From assembly GCF_000001735.4 (NCBI RefSeq), contig NC_003075.7, forward strand, positions 7,875,001 to 7,939,000: a stretch of 64,000 nt of DNA. Reading direction: 5' to 3'. Both the position numbers and the translations under genes were made by a program. The notes beneath the pieces were generated by a model. That model worked only from the letters and a program-made list of their open reading frames with translations. It searched no databases and was not told the DNA's origin. Origin of the DNA: Arabidopsis thaliana (Eukaryota > Streptophyta > Magnoliopsida > Brassicales > Brassicaceae). Positions 1,878 to 46,508 of the stretch are shown here, piece by piece; the first letter of the stretch is position 1, and each line of letters opens with the position of its first letter.

Positions 1878-4763
1878 CGTTTGAAATTTGAATTCGAGAA
1901 ATTTGGAGAAGAAGAAGAAGAAGAGGATTTGTGTTCTTCTGGAGAATTCTGTGGAGCTGATTGTCTTGTTGTCAAAATTGAAACCATTAACGGTTTCTTT
2001 TTCAATTGACAGTGAAATTAATATAATTAAGAAAATTGCACTTTTTAATAACGAAATTATGCTTAATACAAGATACTTTGTGACATTAATGTTATCTTTG
2101 TGGTTTCATTTGAGCTGGTAAAAGATACTTTTAACACATGGGTTGGGAAGAAAATTAGTTACTCCATGACATAATTTTTACTTAAACACATTTTTGTGTA
2201 AGTTAATTATTCCGCTGGGCGCTGGAGCTTTCACCAGCAACGAGGAACATCGACGTAGAGATTAAGTCTATGGAGCTTTCAGCAGCAACTAAAAAAAAAC
2301 ACTTGCTTCCAGAGATTGGTTAGAAATAATAGCCACAATGGCATTAAACCCAACCCAAAGACACCAAAAAAAATCTTGATCCGTAACTTTGATTTGTTCT
2401 TAAATAATTAAAATCGATAAGCTTGAAAAACAAATCGAGTCTTTTAAACAATAGAAGTTTAAGAAATTATGATTTTGGATCTATAATTGAAACACAATAT
2501 AAAACAAGAGAAAGAAAACATTATTCTAAACTAGAAAGCAATCCGGCCAAAAGATCAATGAGACACCGGAGATGGGCGGTGATACTCTAGACCTAAACTA
2601 GCCAACCGCCGCTATAGAAGCCAACATATGCCATAAGCTAGCCGACTACCACCGTAAATAGAAAACCTCATCGGGCAGAAAATCAGACATCTATGCTGAG
2701 AAAGTCAAAGGATTTTGGTCAGATAGCCGGTCAACAAATGCTGAAGAAGTCGTTGTTACCGGGAAAAAAAGCTGCGATGACTTCCTCTCTAAGTATTGTT
2801 CTTGTTAGAAAAATTTGATATATTAATTTTAAAAACTAAACATATAATATTTAAAAACATATAAATGGACAAATTCAATTTTAAAGAAATCTCATAGTTT
2901 AAGAAGCTCATTGCACATTGCTCATGATTTGTTTCTACAACAAAATGATTTGTGCTTGTTGCAAGTCCCCGTATCTACGAACTCGAGCAAACGAGCACAC
3001 ATTTATCTATGTTTTCTGCTTTTTCTGATATAAAATTTTAGATCTCCTAAAAATAAAATACATAAACTTTCACGAATTAGACCACTCCAGATACATCGAA
3101 TCATTTTGATAGAAACTTACCCACACTGTATATTCTGAAACTGATAAAGATTAAAGTCTTATAAAAATCTTGAAAATTGATGTTTCCGATTCCTACAATA
3201 CACCTTCAACATACAAAATAACTTAGAAAAAAATCTAGAAATTCAAATGCTCGACGTTAATCTCATTAATAGAAAATGTCTATATTCCGTTTAAAATAGT
3301 GACATTGTTTTTAAATATATATTTTAAAACAACATCTTACTATAAACCAAAAATATTTTTTCTTATGTTTCTTTATTTCTCCACAATAGTCACGCTACCT
3401 TTAGGTTTAAAATAAAATAAAAAGCTGAAAAAACATTCTTAAAAAACATTTTAAAAAAAACAAGTCACTATTTTAAAAATGAGACTAACCTCACACATTC
3501 AAACCTTTTTGGGTGTTTTCTTCATTATTTTGTATGGTGAAAGTTTGTTGTAGGAGTCGAAAATAATAGAAACTAAATGTTGGAGTCAAAAGAACTCTCA
3601 AGGTCTTTTAAGTGATTTTTTTTTTTCATTTTTTTTGTATTTCCTGAAAATTAGAAAAACATAATTGAATGCAACGCTGATATATACTTCTTTAATTAAT
3701 TCAACAATGGAATAAAATAAGTAAAATTACATCAACGATGCACTCAATGATGTTCATTCAAACCCAGGGGAAAAAAATATCTCCTTGCTCATTTCTATTA
3801 CCATGGAGATAAACACAAATATCATTTATAAGACATTTGGTCGTGTCTTTGGTTTGAAAGCAGTACAATGCTTGCTTGTACTACTGTGTACGATTAAGGA
3901 ATTGTACTAAATCTTATTTTTTGGGGGCTGTAGATTCTTTTTGAGGATTTTTTTTAATTATAGTTGCCTTTAGTTTTCATGTGATTGGAATACAAAAACA
4001 TTTTCATTTTTTTTTCTTGATTAAATAATGCATGTTTTCGTATCTACTAAAAAGATCGTGTTCTTTATGTACTGCAACGAAACACAAACTTTGTGTACTA
4101 CATGAGATTATCTTCACTTCAAAGACGTCGTTTGTTGTTAAACTCTCCATTTTGCTTTTTCAAGACCAATCATAAATTATAATTTGCTTTCATTATTATT
4201 AACTAGGCCTTATTACTTTGTTTAATTCGAAGAAAATAAATCTTAGGCTCATGAACACCATTTCCTTTCATATTTGGGTATGTAAGTACACAAACTTTTC
4301 GTTGATTTGGAAACCACCAAGTCTAATGCTTTATTCACTAAAAATCTATTAAATTCATTTTTACAATGCTTATAACACTTGCTCGGTTTAAACTTTAAAC
4401 AATATAGACCAACATCATGATAATAATGCAAGTTTACCAATAAGCTTATTAATCATATATAATTATTTTACTAATTTAATGAACTATATATTATCGGCTA
4501 CGATATTCGTACATGGCTCGGACTAGGATTACACGGTTTGTTCTAATGATAAGAGTGTTTGCTAATTTGGTTCATTCCTTTAAAATAGACAAAGGCTGTG
4601 ATGTTACAACATCTTATTACATCTCAGATTTCGGATTACATGATCACAAAACCTTTCAAAACAAATAATCTTATTACAAACATAATTTGGAGAAACCCAA
4701 AACTTCCAAAACAAGAAATTATTCATAAATATTTTAAATAAAATAGTTGAGAAGTATAAATTC
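1878..4763. other. Intergenic region, no gene seen
   Basis: About 2.9 kb between the divergent 5' end of the lipase gene and the 3' end of UNE15. It opens with a GAA-rich tract (1906-1925). Positions ~2540-2790 are visibly more GC-rich than the flanks and carry no long frame. From 2800 on it is strongly AT-rich with homopolymer runs. I see no coding signal, tRNA or recognisable transposon end. Confidence 0.6.
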
Positions 4764-10017: not shown

Positions 10018-10315
10018 TCACTTCTTCGTGGTTTTGTTGATGAGAGACATGTGGATGTGAGAGACTACTCCTTATCCACCAATTGTTACTTTGATAAATG
10101 GATCAAGATCCCTATCTCCTGCGATCACCAACTATAAATGCATTAGAGTAATCCTCTTTATTTTCTTATCATTGATTGTGTTTTTCGGTAACTCAATAAC
10201 CTATGAAGTTAGGCACTCTAGGATTGAAGCCATGTAGTCAACAACAATAGCACCAAGTCGACCATGTTGTAGATACTCTAGTCTTGAGTTGCATGTGAAT
10301 ACGACCCACTAGAAA
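10018..10315 (-). pseudogene. Histone H2A.Z pseudogene, antisense-oriented partner of HTA4
   Basis: The minus strand from 10315 translates in pieces to an H2A.Z core: VDYMASILE, then PLIKVTI-like remnants, ending [13 protein letters not shown] and a TGA at 10018-10020. Several in-frame stops occur, for example just after ILECLTS. Its 3' end keeps the full H2A.Z tail, with one Lys to Met change, which the facing HTA4 copy has lost. It pairs with 10398-10720. Confidence 0.75.
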
Positions 10316-10397
10316 TTGAAATAAACAAAGAAATTTCATTTTTTGTAGTATAATTTGATAAAATTTTATACTGATATTGTTTCTTTGTTTCTTTCAG

Positions 10398-10664
10398 TTT
10401 CAAGTGGCTCGTATTCACAAGCAACTTAAGAACAGAGTTTCTGCACATAGTAGTGTTGGTGCGACTGATGTTGTCTACATGACTTCAATCCTTGAATACC
10501 TAACTACAGAGGTTCTTCAGTTGGCCGAAAACACTAGCAAAGATTTAAAAGTGAAGAGGATAACTCCAAGGCATTTGCAGTTGGCGATCAGAGGAGATGA
10601 AGAGCTTGACACACTCATCAAAGGAACAATTATTGGAGGAAGTGTGATCCCTCACATCCACTAG
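10398..10664 (+). CDS. HTA4: Truncated histone H2A.Z variant (HTA4)
   Basis: The exon begins after TTTCAG at 10397 and encodes an H2A fold: [16 protein letters not shown] (canonical FPVGRIHRQLKTR), [60 protein letters not shown]. The GDEELDTLI and IPHIH segments mark it as H2A.Z-type rather than canonical H2A. It is incomplete: I find no exon for the N-terminal tail and no in-frame ATG upstream within the exon. The first internal Met is in VVYMTS. The TAG after HIH corresponds to an AAG Lys codon in normal H2A.Z, and two bases are missing just after, so the last ~11 residues are gone. A stable nucleosomal histone is unlikely; it may be a pseudogene. HTA4/AT4G13570 is from memory. Confidence 0.7.
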
Positions 10665-15309: not shown

Positions 15310-15990
15310 ATGTTTCAAGTTTTGCAAAACCGTTTGTTTCTTCCAAAAACAATTTTGTCATCTAGACTAAAGGAGGCCTTTCATGAGTTTAAGAATGACT
15401 TTAAGATTCAAAACCTAATTTTGCATATTTAATTGTCTCATCTTTTCCAAATACAGAATCGTGGGTGAATAAATGTAATTTCTAATGGTATCATCAAATG
15501 ATTTGGTGTATCGTAGCACAACATCAATTGTTCAAGATTCGGCATTGTCTTCAGAAAGTGGTTGACCTACTTGATTTGATCAGCTGTGTCTTCGTTGTCA
15601 TCACAAAGTTCGTTAATCTCTATTATCAAGTCCGGTGAAGGTCCTTAAGATATTTAAGTTTGAAGAAATTTGTGATGACAATGAAGACATAAAGGAGCAG
15701 ATCGAGCACGTCAAACACTTCCTAATTAAAGCAATGCCAAATCTTGATCAGGTGATGTTGTGGTAGGATAAACCAAATGATCTAATGAATGTCATGAGAT
15801 GGTGTAGTCTTTTTAGACGACTACGTCATCTCCATGATCTGATGAATGTCACTTGCAACATCTTTCCCGCTTCTAGTATCCTAGCTGAGCTTGAAAAACT
15901 CATGGCTTTGGGCTTAGCTAGAAAGACTTAATCTCTTCATTTTCAGGCCAAATTTCCCAACCAAGCTTCTTTAGCTAACCTTCTAAAGTG
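15310..15990. repeat. Head-to-head FBD fragments of F-box/LRR genes
   Basis: 15485-15609 read on minus (EDTADQIK.VNHFLKTMPNLEQLMLCYDTP) and 15640-15790 read on plus (VKVLKIFKFEEICDDNEDI, EHVKHFLIKAMPNLDQVMLW) are the same FBD domain in opposite orientation, about 55 bases apart. The plus copy still has the normal 'PVKVLK' entry of FBD domains. Downstream, 15790-15990 resembles 20960-21170 and has no protein I recognise. Stops interrupt both copies. Confidence 0.6.
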
Positions 15991-25346: not shown

Positions 25347-25426
25347 CACCTATTGATCAATCTCAAATCCTTCAATCTTTCCTACAAAACAAAACCAAGA
25401 ATCATACAAAACAAGCATCCTCCAAT

Positions 25427-26161
25427 ATGATGAAACAATCACCATTCTCACTTTTAACATCAATCTTTCTCATAGCTGCTCTTTTTACTGCAACTACCGC
25501 ACTCGATCCTGCACCCGAAGACCCGATTTTTGAATTGTACATGCACGATATACTTGGGGGAAGCAGTCCCACAGCAAGACCCATTACGGGTTTGCTTGGA
25601 AACATCTACAACGGTCAAGTACCGTTTGCTAAGCAGATCGGTTTTGTTCCACCGCAAAACGGTGTAGCCATACCCAACGCAAATGGGGCAATGCCAACGG
25701 TTAACGGTATCAACGGTATTCCATTAGGTACTGGTTTGTCTGGAACAGCGTTTTCTGGTCAGAATCTAAATGGGATTCAGACTCAGTTGGGTCCTGATGG
25801 TCTGAGTCTTGGGTTTGGAACAATCACGGTGATTGACGACATAATCACATCTGGTCCTGACTTGGGGTCACAACCACTTGGTAAGGCTCAAGGTGTTTAT
25901 GTTGCCAGCTCAGCAGATGGAAGCACGCAGATGATGGCTTTCACAGCTATGCTTGAAGGTGGAGAGTACAATGATAATCTAAATTTCTATGGAATCTATA
26001 GGATAGGAAGCGCCATGTCACATCTGTCAGTGACTGGAGGAACCGGAAGGTTTAAGAACGCTTGCGGATTTGCAGAGGTTAGGCCGTTGATTCCTGCGGG
26101 CCAACACTTTGTTGATGGAGCTGAGATGCTGTTGAGGATCATTGTCCATCTGAAATACTGA
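25427..26161 (+). CDS. DIR18: Dirigent-domain protein DIR18
   Basis: Single-exon gene of 244 residues. A signal peptide spans residues 1-~25 (MMKQSPFSLLTSIFLIAALF... ending TTALDP). The dirigent domain is split by a long Gly/Asn-rich insertion. Block one is FELYMHDILGGSSPTARPIT (residues ~36-55). The insertion at ~75-120 is full of NGxxxPNxNG-type repeats. Then come GFGTITVIDD, AQGVYVASS, FTAMLEGGEYND, SVTGGTGRFK and the C-terminal LRIIVHLKY. Dirigent proteins act in the cell wall, steering coupling of phenoxy radicals. The inserted-domain architecture matches the ESB1-like subgroup linked to Casparian-strip lignin in roots; the role here is inferred from that subgroup. Two adjacent ATGs (25427, 25430) are possible starts. 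Confidence 0.9.
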   Translation: MMKQSPFSLLTSIFLIAALFTATTALDPAPEDPIFELYMHDILGGSSPTARPITGLLGNIYNGQVPFAKQIGFVPPQNGVAIPNANGAMPTVNGINGIPLGTGLSGTAFSGQNLNGIQTQLGPDGLSLGFGTITVIDDIITSGPDLGSQPLGKAQGVYVASSADGSTQMMAFTAMLEGGEYNDNLNFYGIYRIGSAMSHLSVTGGTGRFKNACGFAEVRPLIPAGQHFVDGAEMLLRIIVHLKY

Positions 26162-30246: not shown

Positions 30247-31951
30247 TCATATATATGAAAGTTGGTCAACTCTCTCCATATGAGTAACACATCATCATAC
30301 CAGTGAATGTCACATGTCATTCTAAATTAATATTATTAAAAACAAATTTAGTGATAAAGAATTAAAAGTTTCACATTGCATTGAATCATCCATTAATCCC
30401 ACTCTTAACTAAATATCTTCATATAAAAGAAAAAATACAAAAAAATCATGTTAATGTATCAAACACTACTCTCATTTTACTTTTCTTATTTTGCTATTTT
30501 TTAATAGTCATTACTTGATAAGGACTAGAATTTTTCGTGTTTTGTAACTTAGTTGTTTGCTATTTAACTTTTTTTAGTTTAGTAATTTTAACTTAATCTT
30601 TTCTTTTTATTATATTTTTTGTCTACATGATATGGTTTTTTTGCGCAAAATATGATTAATCGGTAACATTAATAATGACATGCATATTTTTTTTAATAAT
30701 GGTCTTTTGAGAGGTTAGATATACCAAAAAGTTAAATATACGACTCTCTCTCCAATATGAATATGACTATATCTATATATACATTTTTGCAGCCATTTTG
30801 TGAAATAAATCCTGGAGTTGGAACTTATTTACAATAGATGCCACTGGCTTTTAATTATTGGGGTTTTCAGCAATAAATTGATTAACAAACGAAAAACATT
30901 CCAAATATATTCTAATCCCATATATCACGCAGATTTTTCCAAAATTTGAAATAGATTTCGGTAACTATTTAAAATAAAAAATGTTTGACAACCCAAAAGA
31001 CAATTGCAATCCCTTAAAATGAGCAAAACGCAACTAAATATATTTCTTATCAATTCACTAAATCTTATTTCTCCAAAATTTGAACTAAATTTCGACAACT
31101 ATTTAAAACAAAATTTTGTTTGACAAACTAAAACACAATTGCAATCCCTTAAAATATTTATTTTAATTATAAATTTAAATTAGCGGGGTACCGCAGTTTT
31201 TTTTACAGGACGGGTTTGGCGAAACAGGTTTGGAAGGACGTTACTTAATAACAATTGTAAACTATAAAATAAAAATATTTTATAGATAGATATAATTTGC
31301 AAAATTTTATATATACTAATTTCGAAAAACAAATTGTCTCCGCGGTGTACCGCGGGTTAAAATCTAGTGCAAATGTAAAGAGAGAAACCTATAAGAGTTA
31401 ACTTAAAAGACTATTTAATTTTTGCTTTCTTTTTTCTCTTTCATGTGAAAACTTTTAAAGCAAATGAGTAATTAGTTATACATTATGTTATTCAAATTAT
31501 GTCAATCCAATATTTAGCCATGAGCCTATCATGATGTGATTGGATACTAGATTAGGAGAGAATACATAGAACAAGAAATTGTTTGCTTAGAATCAAGTTA
31601 GGCAACTTTCAAACTAAATAAGTAACATAATTGTATACCATTTTATCATATATGGTTGATATAAGTATTTCATAATAGTTAAAAAAGATAAGAATCTTGG
31701 GTATATATAGATAAAAAGATTTATACATGAAAAAAATATAATTGATATTTGAATCAAAAGTGAATCTAACTATACAAATATAATTACAGAAAATGAATAT
31801 AATTTTATTAACTACATAATAACATACACGAAAAATAACATAAATTAGCAATAAAAATAGTAAATAAATTAGCAATAAAAATAGTTAAACATAGTTATTT
31901 TTAAACAATTTTCAAAACAATAACCCACACGTAGTTTGGGTATTCACCTAG
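30247..31951 (+). mobile_element. Non-autonomous Helitron (ATREP-like), copy 2, carrying a nested Helitron
   Basis: Begins TCATATATATGAAAGTTGGTC after A and ends with the hairpin ACCCACACGTAGTTTGGGT, then ATTCACCTAG, then T. Stem ACCCA/TGGGT plus CTAG|T is the diagnostic Helitron 3' end. Apart from a 596-base insertion at 30772-31367 it aligns along its length with the element at 21291-22345. Confidence 0.85.
30772..31367 (+). mobile_element. Nested small Helitron with exact empty-site evidence
   Basis: Begins TCTATATATACATTTTTGCA after A30771 and ends CCGCGGTGTACCGCGG (31340-31355), GTTAAAAT, CTAG before T31368. The host copy at 21291-22345 has the uninterrupted sequence TTATA|TGCAAATG at the matching place, so the insertion between A and T is seen directly. 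No coding capacity: non-autonomous. Confidence 0.88.
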
Positions 31952-32191
31952 TGTGTTATAAAAAAAGAAAACATATTATTGATTCTAAACACGGCTAGGC
32001 TCGAGTAAATGGGTCGAAAGCTTAATGGCTTATCTTTTTAGTGGATGTTCATGGTAATATGTTATAGACTCATAGTCAACACAACAAATAAATATCTTCT
32101 GTTTTCAACATTGAAACCGATAGTATTAATGGCCATAAATCTGGCATTTAATTCGTGATTGCTAATTTTAACGGAGTGGTTTTACTTTCGC
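31952..32191. other. Flank between Helitron and hairpin locus
   Basis: Unique-looking 240 bases upstream of the TATA box at 32192; likely part of the promoter of the hairpin locus if it is transcribed. Confidence 0.4.
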
Positions 32192-32199
32192 ATATAAAA
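32192..32199 (+). promoter_or_regulatory. TATA box of the candidate hairpin RNA gene
   Basis: CATATAAAAGG (core ATATAAAA) on plus, about 165 bases upstream of the 5' arm of the hairpin at 32356. Transcription would start near 32225 in a CT/A-rich context. No protein frame follows it. Confidence 0.5.
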
Positions 32200-32355
32200 G
32201 GTAGAAGAAAGAGTTTCTTCTGATACCCAATCTCATTCATTATCATAGACAACAAAATAAATCTTCTTCATGTCTCTTTTCTCTATTTTTTTCTAAGTCT
32301 TGAGATTATGCACATCATGAATGTTTGTTAGATTATTTTCGGATGTTGCAAATAA

Positions 32356-32695
32356 GAAGATCTGCAGTGATGGAGGAGGGTAAGTTGCCTTGCAAGACCA
32401 GTCAACCATAGAGTCTCTTTCAATAGTTGTGGTTCTTATCTTTGTTTGAGTGAGCAAAAAGAATAAGTTTTTTTACAATCCTATTTGATAACTTCAACAG
32501 AAATATGAGTTATAGATTTGATGAAGTAAAGGTATTTCTGATAATCTATAATTCATCATAGACAGAAATGTAGTCTTATACATGTAAAGTTATCAAATGG
32601 GCTCATGGAAAAACTTATTCCTTTTACTTAATCAAACAAAACTAAAGACCACAACGAAGAGACTCTATGTAGACTGGACTCGCAAGACAACTTAT
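32356..32695 (+). ncRNA. Candidate MIRNA or siRNA hairpin derived from a MET1-family methyltransferase exon
   Basis: The 5' arm (32356-32493) and 3' arm (about 32570-32695) are inverted copies, roughly 80% alike by eye, with a ~90-base loop. The 3' arm matches MEE57 in sense from the end of an intron into the exon (window 45724-45850; shared TTATCAAATGGG, GACCACAACG, GACTCTATG, AGACTGGACT). The 5' arm is antisense to 45744-45875. Because intron sequence is present, the copy was made from DNA. In a plus transcript from the TATA at 32192, the 5' arm would carry the antisense strand. Bases 32391-32415 are complementary to MEE57 45817-45841 at 22 of 25 positions. That is how young plant MIRNA genes arise (inverted duplication of a target gene). 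No small-RNA data are available here, so function is inference. I know of miR773 as a regulator of a MET2 gene, and its sequence as I remember it is not in this stem. Confidence 0.55.
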
Positions 32696-32699
32696 AAAA

Positions 32700-33900
32700 T
32701 AGTGTTTTAGTTAGACAATTAGAATCAACTAAAAAGTTTATAAATTTAGAAAATCTAATATTATAATATAGTTTAATTCTTATTTTTATAATATAATATA
32801 TGCATAATACGGAACATATATCTATATCTACTAAATCAACCGTTAAGTTAACAAAAATTGCAACCCTTTCTGTTTGACAAGTAGCAAAAATCTCAAATTT
32901 TACTCTTTTACTTTCATGTAATCCTATTCTATTATTCTTGAAAATAAAATTATCAAAAATAGAAAAATATTTTACCATTTTCTTAGCAACCACCCATGAT
33001 CTCAAAATCATCTCATCTTCCAAACTCTCTCCCACATATCTTTTTTGTTAAAATAACTCTTTCCCACTTTATTCAATAATTTGTTTGTTTTATAATTTTG
33101 AAATTTACCTATCTATATTTTTTCTTTTGATGAAATTTAACTATATAGCTAATTAATGAATTCAATGCACTTCTATTGTTAAAAACTAATGGCAACATAT
33201 GTTTGATTTTCCCAAAATATTTTGATATATGATGTAAATTGGCATTTATTTTGTATACGCATAGCATGGACCATAATGCTAGTCTAGTTGTATTATAAAT
33301 GTATCTATGACTTGTTGCGATAAGTTGCGATGAGGAAGAATTGGATATAGACTTCACGGATTAAACAACTGAAACCAACAAATGAAATACCCTAAATGAA
33401 AGAGTAAAACGTTTTTTTTTTGTTGGCTATTTACCTAAGAATCACAATGCAATTGTCAATAAAAACTAGCAGAAGTAGAAAGCCTTATTTAGCAAATTAT
33501 TAGTTAATCTTTTTCAGAAAAAAACTTAATTTTCTTGAGTAAATGTTTGTATTTCTTACCAATAATTAACACAAAAAGGGTTTTTATGCAAAAACACATT
33601 CGAAAAGTATTTGTTTGCAAGTTAACCCTCCACCTCAAATAAATACACGTCAATATCACAATCTCAAAAGTCACCCGCAATATAACCTATAGACGTGTAT
33701 AAATTTTGCAAACCGTATAAGTCAGTATATATGTTATCAAAACTACGTCGTTTTGAACATTTTTATTTTTTCCTAAGCTAACTAGGAAAAATATATCTAA
33801 AACAGGAAACATAATTTAAGGTGGCCTATGATCATCTATATTTATGAACAACCCAGACCTGTTTTCACATATCTGAAACAGAAACTAAGAACACGAGATT
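32700..33900. other. AT-rich intergenic DNA, no gene seen
   Basis: The longest frames are minus 32628-33035 (overlapping the hairpin) and 33109-33357. Neither has a domain, and the first is read through the inverted repeat. Confidence 0.5.
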
Positions 33901-43000: not shown

Positions 43001-46000
43001 TGGAGTATATGTTTGAGAGTTCAGATAACAGTAAAAAGCTACATGGGAAACTCTTACAAAGAGGATCTGAGACTGTTCTAGGAACGGCTGCTAACGAGAG
43101 GGAACTTTTCTTGACTAATGAATGTCTTACTGTTCAGCTCAAGGACATAAAAGGAACAGTAAGTTTTGAGATTCGATCAAGGCCGTGGGGTCATCAGTAT
43201 AAGAAAGAGCACATGGCTGCAGATAAACTTGACCGGGCAAGAGCTGAGGAAAGAAAAGCTAAAGATTTGCCAATAGAATACTACTGCAAAAGCTTGTACT
43301 CACCTGAGAAAGGTGGATTCTTTAGTCTTCCAAGAAGTGATATGGGTCTAGGTTCTGGATTCTGCAGTTCATGTAAGATAAGAGAGAATGAAGAGGAAAG
43401 GTCAAAAACTAAACTCAATGATTCAAAGACAAGATTTCTCTCCAATGGGATCAAGTATTCTGTTGGGGATTTTGTTTATCAAATCCCCAACTACTTAAGT
43501 AAAGATAGGGGTAAAAGAAGGCCAGTGTTTAAGTATGGTAGGAATGTTGGGTTAAGAGCCTTTGTGGTTTGCCAAATACTGGATATAGTTGACCTAAAAG
43601 AACCCAAAAAAGGTAATACGACTTCTTTTGAGGTCAAAGTGAGACGGTTTTATAGGCCCGATGATGTTTCTGCAGAAGAGGCTTATGCTTCAGACATACA
43701 AGAGGTAACAACTATTTCTTACGTGAAATAAAAAAATTATTTCGTATGTTACATATTTGATAATGTTCAAAGGTTGATCTTACAGTTTTTTTATCTTTCT
43801 ACTTTTGGAAATTTCTTTAGGTTTATTATAGCGAGGACACATATATTCTTCCTCCAGAAGCTATAAAGGGAAAATGCGAAGTTATGAAAAAAACTGATAT
43901 GCCCTTATGTCGTGAGTATCCAATTTTAGACCATGTCTACTTCTGTGACCGTTTTTATGACTCATCCAATGGTTGTCTCAAGAAGGTATATATTAATTAA
44001 TTTTCTAAATAGTTTTTGAAGATAATATATTTATTGTTGGTTCCGTAAAAAAGTTGAACCGTTGTTTCTCTTAACTATTATGTAACAGTTGCCTTACAAT
44101 ATGATGCTGAAGTTCTCTACTATTAAAGACGACACACTTCTAAGGGAAAAGAAGACTGAAACTGGTTCTGCAATGCTTCTGAAGCCCGATGAGGTACCTA
44201 AAGGGAAGCGTCTAGCTACACTAGATATTTTTGCCGGATGTGGTGGCTTGTCTTATGGACTAGAAAAGGCTGGTATGTATTTATCTCTAGTCATATATTT
44301 TATCTTTCAAAATGCTTGAACACCATATATTCATATGCATGGTGTATGTACACAAGGTGTATCCGATACAAAGTGGGCGATCGAGTATGAAGAGCCAGCT
44401 GCACAAGCTTTCAAACAAAACCATCCCAAAACAACGGTTTTTGTTGACAACTGCAATGTAATTCTTAGGTAAATAGCCAACAGAAAAATATACTTTACTC
44501 TTTTAATTAGGTCATTTCTTGTGCTAGGATCAGTTGGTTGAGATTATTAATTAATGACAGGGCTATAATGGAGAAATGTGGAGATGTTGATGATTGTATC
44601 TCTACTACGGAGGCAGCTGAACTTGCAACGAAACTTGATGAGAACCAGAAGAGTACCCTACCACTTCCCGGTCAAGTGGATTTCATCAGTGGAGGGCCTC
44701 CGTGCCAGGTATATCTTAAAGTTGTTGTTTTACTTCTTCGATAACTTAATTTTGTAGAATAAGTGTTCTTAATGATTTGGAAAATTTGGCAGGGGTTTTC
44801 TCGTTTAAATAGGTTCAGTGACGGCTCTTGGAGTAAAAACCAGTGTCAAATGATATTAGCATTCTTGTCTTTTGCTGACTATTTCCGGCCAAAGTATTTT
44901 CTTCTAGAGAACGTGAAAACCTTTGTGTCATTCAATGAAGGACATACATTTCATCTTACTGTAGCTTCTCTTCTTGAAATGGGTTACCAGGTAATATTTA
45001 TTTCCTAATTCTATTATTTTTGTGTCATGGTCGTTCTTATTCATGATTGCTCTTTAGTAGAAGTTGGCTACATATGATATAAAGCAATGGTTTTCATATA
45101 ACAAGTTTGTTGAAACATGTAGGTGAGATTTGGACTCTTGGAGGCAGGAGCATATGGAATATCTCAACCTCGTAAAAGAGCTTTCATTTGGGCTGCTGCA
45201 CCAAACGAAGTTCTTCCGGAATGGCCAGAGCCCATGCATGTTTTTAATAATCCGGGTTTTAAAATCCCACTATCTCAAGGTTTGCATTATGCGGCTGTTC
45301 AAAGTACTAAATTTGGTGCACCTTTCCGTTCAATCACTGTGAGAGACGCGATTGGTGATCTTCCACCAATAGAAAGCGGAGAATCCAAGATAAACAAAGA
45401 GGTGTGGTTTAATAATTGCACCACTAGAAGAAAGTATCTATACATTACATTAAATACAATAACATGAAGTCATGGTTCTCGTGTCTTGTAGTATGAAGCT
45501 GTTCCGGTCTCGTGGTTCCAAAAGGAGATGAGAGGAAGCATGACTGTTCTCACTGATCATATATGTAAAAAGATGAACGAACTAAACCTCATTCGCTGTA
45601 AGAAAATCCCTAAGACACCCGGTGCTGATTGGCGTGACCTACCAGACGAACATGTAAGTCTTACTCTTATACACTCCGGTAGGAAATTCTTATTAAATCT
45701 ACACATCATTTTAAACGCAATTTTCTTATAATTACAGGTGAATTTATCAAATGGGATTGTGAAAAACATTGTTCCCAATTTGTTAAACAAAGCTAAGGAC
45801 CACAACGGTTATAAGGGACTCTATGGTAGACTGGACTGGCATGGCAATTTACCCACTTGCATCACCAATCTTCAGCCCATGGGGTTGGTGGGAATGTGCT
45901 TCCATCCTGACCAGGACAGAATTATCAGTGTTCGTGAATGCGCCCGATCTCAGGTAATAAAATCTCTAATGTTCCTTCCCTATTACTCATCTAGCATCAA

Positions 46001-46231
46001 TATAAGTGTAAAGAGTTTCTGTTTTGGAAATTGAAGTAATGTTAGCTTATGAATACAGCTCTGAAGTGAAATGATGGTTTAATAAAATTTTTGCAGGGGT
46101 TTCCGGATAGCTATAAGTTTTCAGGAAATATAAAAGACAAACATAGGCAGGTTGGAAATGCAGTCCCTCCACCATTAGCGTTTGCTCTTGGTCGGAAGCT
46201 TAAAGAAGCCCTACACCTTAGGAACATCTAA
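40022..46231 (+). CDS. MEE57: DNA (cytosine-5) methyltransferase, MET1 family (MEE57/MET3), frame broken in exon 1
   Basis: Exons: 40022-41408, 42201-43704, 43821-43985, 44089-44272, 44357-44468, 44561-44708, 44793-44990, 45123-45401, 45492-45653, 45738-45953, 46097-46231; all phases after exon 1 join. Order: Lys/Arg-rich N-terminus, two replication-foci (RFD) domains in exon 1 and early exon 2, acidic tract (42715-42780), two BAH domains in exons 2-3, then the catalytic domain: motif [11 protein letters not shown], motif IV GGPPCQGFS with the catalytic Cys, motif VI ENV, motif VIII QPRKRAF, motif [14 protein letters not shown]. This family copies CG methylation after replication. Two lesions: TGA at 40214-40216 after 64 codons, where MET1 has Leu, and a one-base deletion near 41226-41232 that shifts the frame until exon 1 ends. 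The catalytic half is intact by eye. I recall that the third METI-family gene was reported as truncated by an early stop. A product would need an internal start. Confidence 0.85.
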
Positions 46232-46332
46232 ATCTATATTTAATCCAAATGAATGATAGATTATATATTGTCACTTCATTTGATTTTAGAAGTAAAACCC
46301 TCTTCTTGAAACTCAAAGTCGTTGGTTTAGGA

Positions 46333-46508
46333 TGACACTATAGAAGGATCTAGAATATTCTCTAGTATATTTGTTAATAATTACTATAGTTTGTACTTAA
46401 GGAAACTAGATTAATTAGGTTACCATTCTATTCTCTATATAAACATATGTAACTGTATCTCTTATGAGAGTAAATATAACTTCTTCTAATTCCTAAACTC
46501 TCATCACA
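46333..46508 (+). mobile_element. Copia-type LTR remnant
   Basis: A ~176-base block starting TGACACTATAG and ending TCATCACA, with an internal TATA (CTATATAAAC at 46435). A primer-binding-site match follows 6 bases later. Its start is about 100 bases after the MEE57 stop. The exact 5' end is uncertain and I see no partner LTR in the window. Confidence 0.5.

Follow-up and report, generated by a model that had tools for sequence, protein, structure and literature searches.

The window, meaning the whole 64,000-nucleotide stretch of DNA analysed here, covers positions 7875001-7939000 of contig C4 (chromosome 4) of Arabidopsis thaliana and contains a long hairpin. The hairpin is flanked by frames for a dirigent-domain protein (25403-26158, plus strand) and an X8-domain protein (37889-37443, minus strand), with other genes possible between them. 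Roughly 13 kb away lies an exon of MEE57, which is MET3 (PMC9110472), and both arms of the hairpin are related to this exon. The features are given below in window coordinates; Novel_24 and Novel_24* denote a published small RNA and its star strand (PMC7324540).

32127-32280, plus strand: promoter core and presumed 5' leader, by similarity to Chr1:10021158-10021322 (minus strand)
32193-32199, plus strand: TATA box TATAAAA, read from the sequence; the Chr1 copy reads AAATAAAA at this place
32367-32504, plus strand: 5' arm, matching in antisense the MET3 exon plus the final 7 bases of the intron (BLAST)
32397-32417, plus strand: Novel_24 (21 nt, 5p), exact match, single in the window
32505-32578, plus strand: loop region with its own smaller stem (RNA fold)
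32579-32694, plus strand: 3' arm, matching in sense the MET3 exon plus 5 bases of the intron (BLAST)
32660-32680, plus strand: Novel_24* (21 nt, 3p), exact match, single in the window
45738-45953, plus strand: MET3/MEE57 exon related to the arms, by sequence similarity, with splice signals read from the sequence
45815-45835, plus strand: predicted Novel_24 site in MET3, with mismatches at miRNA positions 1 and 8 and a G:U pair at 20 (score 3.5)

The window also holds the Rfam-recognised miRNA precursors MIR841, MIR3932 and MIR397, at 10251-10462, 15577-15699 and 3654-3760 (minus), respectively, all less than 30 kb from the hairpin. Compared with their own reverse complements, the MIR841 and MIR3932 precursors are 77% and 72% identical.

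Both arms of the hairpin match one MET exon

BLAST searches within the window aligned the 5' arm with 45865-45731 in antisense orientation (75.7%, E 4e-22) and the 3' arm with 45733-45851 in sense orientation (74.6%, E 1e-15). A preliminary description of this DNA had proposed two inverted arms derived from the MEE57 exon, at 32356-32493 and ~32570-32695; we recovered both, with limits about 10 bases away from those proposed. The arms stand head to head, and the antisense arm does come first in a plus transcript, as had been suggested. Also borne out was the complementarity of 32391-32415 to 45817-45841 at 22 of 25 positions, the seven neighbouring registers tested giving 2-6. Compared with its own reverse complement, the hairpin matches over 32381-32694 (71%, E 4e-35). 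The exon starts at 45738, so that the matches include 7 intron bases in the 5' arm and 5 in the 3' arm. Because intron bases are present in both, the arms were presumably copied from DNA and not from mRNA.

The stretch 32340-32720 folds with -135.8 kcal/mol, as compared to a mean of -75.84 (sd 5.13) for shuffled sequences (z -11.69), and 0 of 100 shuffles were as good. Thus, the hairpin passed the folding check against shuffled sequence that had been put forward with it. The stem is not perfect, as there are mismatches and a 5-base gap between the arms.

The two arms are identical to each other at 92 of 117 positions. Identities of the 5' arm are 103/135 with MET3, 103/138 with MET2a, 103/138 with MET2b, and 92/136 with MET1, while those of the 3' arm are 90/114, 93/117, 94/117, and 82/117, in the same order. 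In a tree built on 117 columns, both arms and MET3 group against MET2a/b with support of 91.4/90. Inside this group, three orders fit: none of six topologies is rejected by the AU test (p 0.087-0.74), and two further measures exclude one topology each. A 3-base gap in MET3 is absent from both arms, so that they do not represent a copy of present-day MET3. The parentage would lie on the MET3 side of the family, with several orders of the arms and MET3 compatible with the alignment. If neutral sites change at 7e-9 per year, the divergence of the arms (Jukes-Cantor ~0.25) suggests an age of roughly 18 million years, assuming no gene conversion.

In an inverted-duplication MIRNA, the resemblance of both arms to a single gene extends past the miRNA site, and this is found here: outside the miRNA segment, identity to MET3 is 85/114. 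This agrees with the earlier suggestion that the locus arose when a MET-family exon was duplicated in inverted orientation. Fragments of MET3 have been copied elsewhere too. Its 3' end (window 45890-46400, where the query ended) has two copies, 89% identical, at C2:2152874-2153414 and C2:2158188-2158728, which sit 5.3 kb apart in repeated DNA on chromosome 2.

The promoter-leader resembles a stretch of chromosome 1

Genome-wide searches covered 7 contigs with 119,662,809 bases. We found that the promoter-leader matches its Chr1 counterpart at 73% over 166 columns (E 2e-20), and its 3' part at 77%. Among the best candidates scored, the Chr1 stretch was the sole other copy detected, and the reciprocal search returned the same pair. 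When a 27-base pattern derived from both copies was searched with up to 3 mismatches, only these two places were found in the genome. The TATA box predicted ahead of the arms, at 32192, is present one base further on. Both promoter-leader copies run into ATGTCTCTTTT, as if they had once been the start of one gene.

Behind the Chr1 copy, a search for a second hairpin returned 0 inverted pairs of at least 15 bases in 1,651 bases. A copy of a MET promoter was likewise unsupported: the best match of 31900-32366 to the MET loci and to the upstream regions of MET2a, MET2b, and MET1 had an E of 0.07. The hairpin thus seems to have joined a non-MET promoter.

The hairpin is the probable source of a published small RNA

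Small RNAs from Col-0 leaves infected with Phytophthora capsici have been sequenced (PMC7324540; reads under PRJNA607881). Table 2 of that paper lists Novel_24 as a "potential novel miRNA" of 21 nt from the 5p arm, with a precursor of 284 nt, GC 30.3%, and MFE -116, together with the 21-nt Novel_24* from the 3p arm (PMC7324540). Novel_24 is reported to be up-regulated at all infection stages, by northern blot and stem-loop qPCR, with a maximum at 12 h, and the authors term their six candidates potential miRNAs or siRNAs (PMC7324540). They tested as a target AT4G36150, an NB-LRR gene, and reported its mRNA to be lower (PMC7324540); the word "methyltransferase" occurs 0 times in the main text.

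Both strands match the hairpin exactly, and for the exact match of Novel_24 no second place in the genome was reported. From Novel_24 to Novel_24*, the hairpin spans 284 nt with GC 30.3%, both values equal to those in the published table, while the MFE obtained here was -111.5 vs the published -116. Identity of sequence, star, precursor length, and GC makes this the same RNA, for which the paper pursues another target. Thus, by exact match, the hairpin is the source of Novel_24, and its genomic placement and MET origin are established in the present analysis. Novel_24 overlaps the segment 32391-32415 singled out in the preliminary description.

A full-text search of the main texts of openly licensed papers with 14-base words from the arms, which covered part of the stem, returned PMC7324540 only, and no statement of a MET origin of the locus was found in the openly licensed main texts searched. 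In Rfam, no family reached its gathering score at the hairpin. The hits to MIR2630 and MIR8007 (23 bits each vs cut-offs of 144 and 195; E 0.026 and 0.044) were taken as chance. Two loci that carry the sequence we take to be miR773 (C1, 13.05 and 13.07 Mb) were likewise unmatched at gathering score. Rfam is thus incomplete for Arabidopsis miRNAs, and absence from it does not show that the hairpin locus is unannotated.

The plant MIRNA criteria of Axtell and Meyers (2018) reportedly ask that miRNA and star both be sequenced, one from each arm of a foldback of up to 300 nt, with at most 5 mismatched positions, at most 3 in asymmetric bulges, and 2-nt 3' overhangs, and that the duplex account for at least 75% of the reads, with no majority of 23-24-nt reads. 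At the hairpin, the published pair lies exactly on the two opposite arms of one foldback, with 4 unpaired miRNA bases, 1 nt of asymmetry, and 284 nt from miRNA to star. The unpaired bases of Novel_24 in the fold are 1 and 8-10 (4/21), and the 3' overhangs are 2 nt for the star and 1 nt for the miRNA. Of the 130 start positions examined along the 5' arm, 73 satisfy the same duplex limits; thus, the structure does not single out Novel_24.

Among the differences between the arms, 7 are wobble-keeping transitions, 9 pair-breaking transitions, and 9 transversions (p 0.80), which gives no sign of selection for pairing. The miRNA segment is identical to MET3 at 18 of 21 positions; 10 of 118 windows are better and 16 equal (itself included), so this match is not exceptional. 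Compared arm to arm, the segment is identical at 18 of 20 positions compared; among 118 windows, 2 exceed it in identical columns and 10 are level with it (itself included). The latter figure leans mildly towards a kept duplex, while the other selection figures do not.

Predicted targets of Novel_24

Putative targets were scored on genomic DNA by an ungapped, Allen-type scheme (mismatch 1, G:U 0.5, doubled at positions 2-13). A control of up to 300 random 21-mers from the window, with those inside MET3 skipped, had a minimum of 1.5, about 5% at or below 5.5, and a median of about 8. Novel_24 scored 3.5 on MET3 and 4.5 on both MET2a and MET2b, while the best place at the MET1 locus scored 9.0 and was on the wrong strand. 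The duplex energy ratios were 0.85 for MET3, 0.79 for MET2a/b, and 0.45 for MET1. The predicted match is thus fair for MET3, borderline for MET2a/b, and poor for MET1, which would be spared. Position 8 of the miRNA is mismatched in the MET3 and MET2a/b sites alike. The preliminary description had proposed that the hairpin yields an miRNA or siRNA against MET messages; the small RNA and its star do match the two arms exactly, while action on MET messages is a prediction from these scores.

With 3 plain mismatches allowed, Novel_24 found 3 places in the whole genome, namely the locus itself, MET3, and C4:1106236, as compared to 1 for a reversed control. The C4:1106236 site, which scores 4 and is mismatched at positions 2 and 3, falls within a 958-aa open frame, presumably TOC159. 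A wobble-tolerant search with at most 3 mismatches gave 136 forward and 129 reverse places vs 902 and 429 for the reversed control; because the control gave more, such matches mean little alone. Among the matches listed, 28 places in the genome have 2 mismatches with G:U free, and MET3 scores best of these, strand and transcription being ignored. In 20 kb around the position which we take to be that of AT4G36150, the best site, inside an NB-ARC frame, scored 7.0 whether or not one gap was allowed. Scores of 1.5-2.0 on MET3, better than that of Novel_24, were obtained with other 21-mers from the 5' arm; thus, an siRNA mode would also reach MET3.

MET3 is reported to be endosperm-specific, with no seed phenotype on loss (PMC9110472). 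Novel_24, as a leaf RNA, is therefore a poor fit to it.

Relation to miR773

miR773 targets MET2 (At4g14140), with At4g08990 as a predicted target (PMC1790633). Reviews connect this miRNA with immunity (PMC5855737), and a further paper names a miR773-DNA-MET module and includes MET2b among phasiRNA loci (PMC7001039). The family targeted is the same as that predicted for Novel_24, while the sequence and the locus (Chr1) differ. The MIR773 loci were placed with what we take to be the miR773 sequences; with up to 1 mismatch, the pattern occurs at only two places in the genome, both on Chr1. The hairpin as a relative of MIR773 was rejected: 3 kb round each MIR773 copy showed no DNA similarity to the MET loci, the window, or the Chr1 promoter-copy locus at E up to 1e-3.

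Discussion

The locus is likely a young MIRNA-type gene, born by inverted duplication of a MET-like exon behind a promoter-leader without a clear MET match, and it is very likely the source of a discrete 21-nt miRNA-like RNA. According to the mechanism that we propose, genomic DNA from part of a MET3-like methyltransferase gene would have been placed twice, head to head, behind this promoter-leader. The plus transcript, from a presumed start, would form a stem some 115-130 base pairs long, from which a Dicer-like enzyme would free at least one 21-nt duplex, Novel_24/Novel_24*. Novel_24 begins with A and might thus be loaded into AGO2. The 5'-arm strand, being antisense, would pair with MET3 messages and less well with those of MET2a/b, and these messages might be cleaved.

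The locus resembles MIR163 and MIR161, young Arabidopsis inverted-duplication MIRNAs with a long foldback and both arms gene-like beyond the miRNA site (PMC1790633). MIR163 derives from SAMT methyltransferase-like genes, and its promoter is reportedly a copy of the one at its source gene (PMC1790633), whereas the promoter of the hairpin locus has no clear MET match and resembles the Chr1 stretch. Also unlike for MIR163 and MIR161, targeting at the hairpin locus is predicted only.

Alternatively, several Dicers might process the long stem to numerous RNAs of 21-24 nt, with Novel_24 just the survivor of the miRNA caller and MET messages still silenced, via several siRNAs. The length of the stem and the better fit to MET3 of other 5'-arm 21-mers would suit such a hairpin-siRNA locus, as would the finding that most gene-similar foldbacks described earlier give complex siRNA populations (Fahlgren 2007, PMC1790633). 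We consider it rather unlikely, as a discrete 21-nt RNA and its star were called after filtering and the RNA was blotted (PMC7324540), and the stem is interrupted by mismatches and the gap between the arms. A remnant, that is, a decaying inverted duplication with no transcript, would be consistent with the 25 differences among 117 arm positions and the lack of any sign of selection for pairing, but it is highly improbable given that both duplex strands were sequenced and one was detected on northern blot and by qPCR (PMC7324540).

A real miRNA could also have its useful target outside the gene of origin, for example in AT4G36150, the MET match then reflecting ancestry only. The family of origin is the best target for only 7 of 16 gene-derived MIRNAs (Fahlgren 2007, PMC1790633), the AT4G36150 mRNA is reported lower (PMC7324540), and MET3 expression is confined to endosperm (PMC9110472). 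Since the AT4G36150 region offers no site better than 7.0, as compared to 3.5 in MET3, we hold this alternative, too, to be somewhat improbable. For the MIRNA-type gene that we favor, it is possible but doubtful that it measurably regulates MET3 or MET2a/b in one tissue or another, and control of CG methylation by the hairpin RNA is a hypothesis that we put forward as such. It is unlikely, though conceivable, that the locus provides a second small-RNA route besides miR773 onto the non-canonical CG methyltransferases, by an oomycete-induced miRNA from a copied exon under a foreign promoter, with MET1 spared.

Our results give a published small RNA, induced by infection and hitherto unplaced, its birthplace and ancestry, and they point to MET3 and MET2a/b as candidate messages that it matches better than the tested AT4G36150. 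If Novel_24 acts on them, little-studied reproductive methyltransferases would be controlled by RNA from a copy of their own exon. If the second route exists, small RNAs of two independent origins would act on the MET2/MET3 family and connect the methylation machinery with infection or with seed development.
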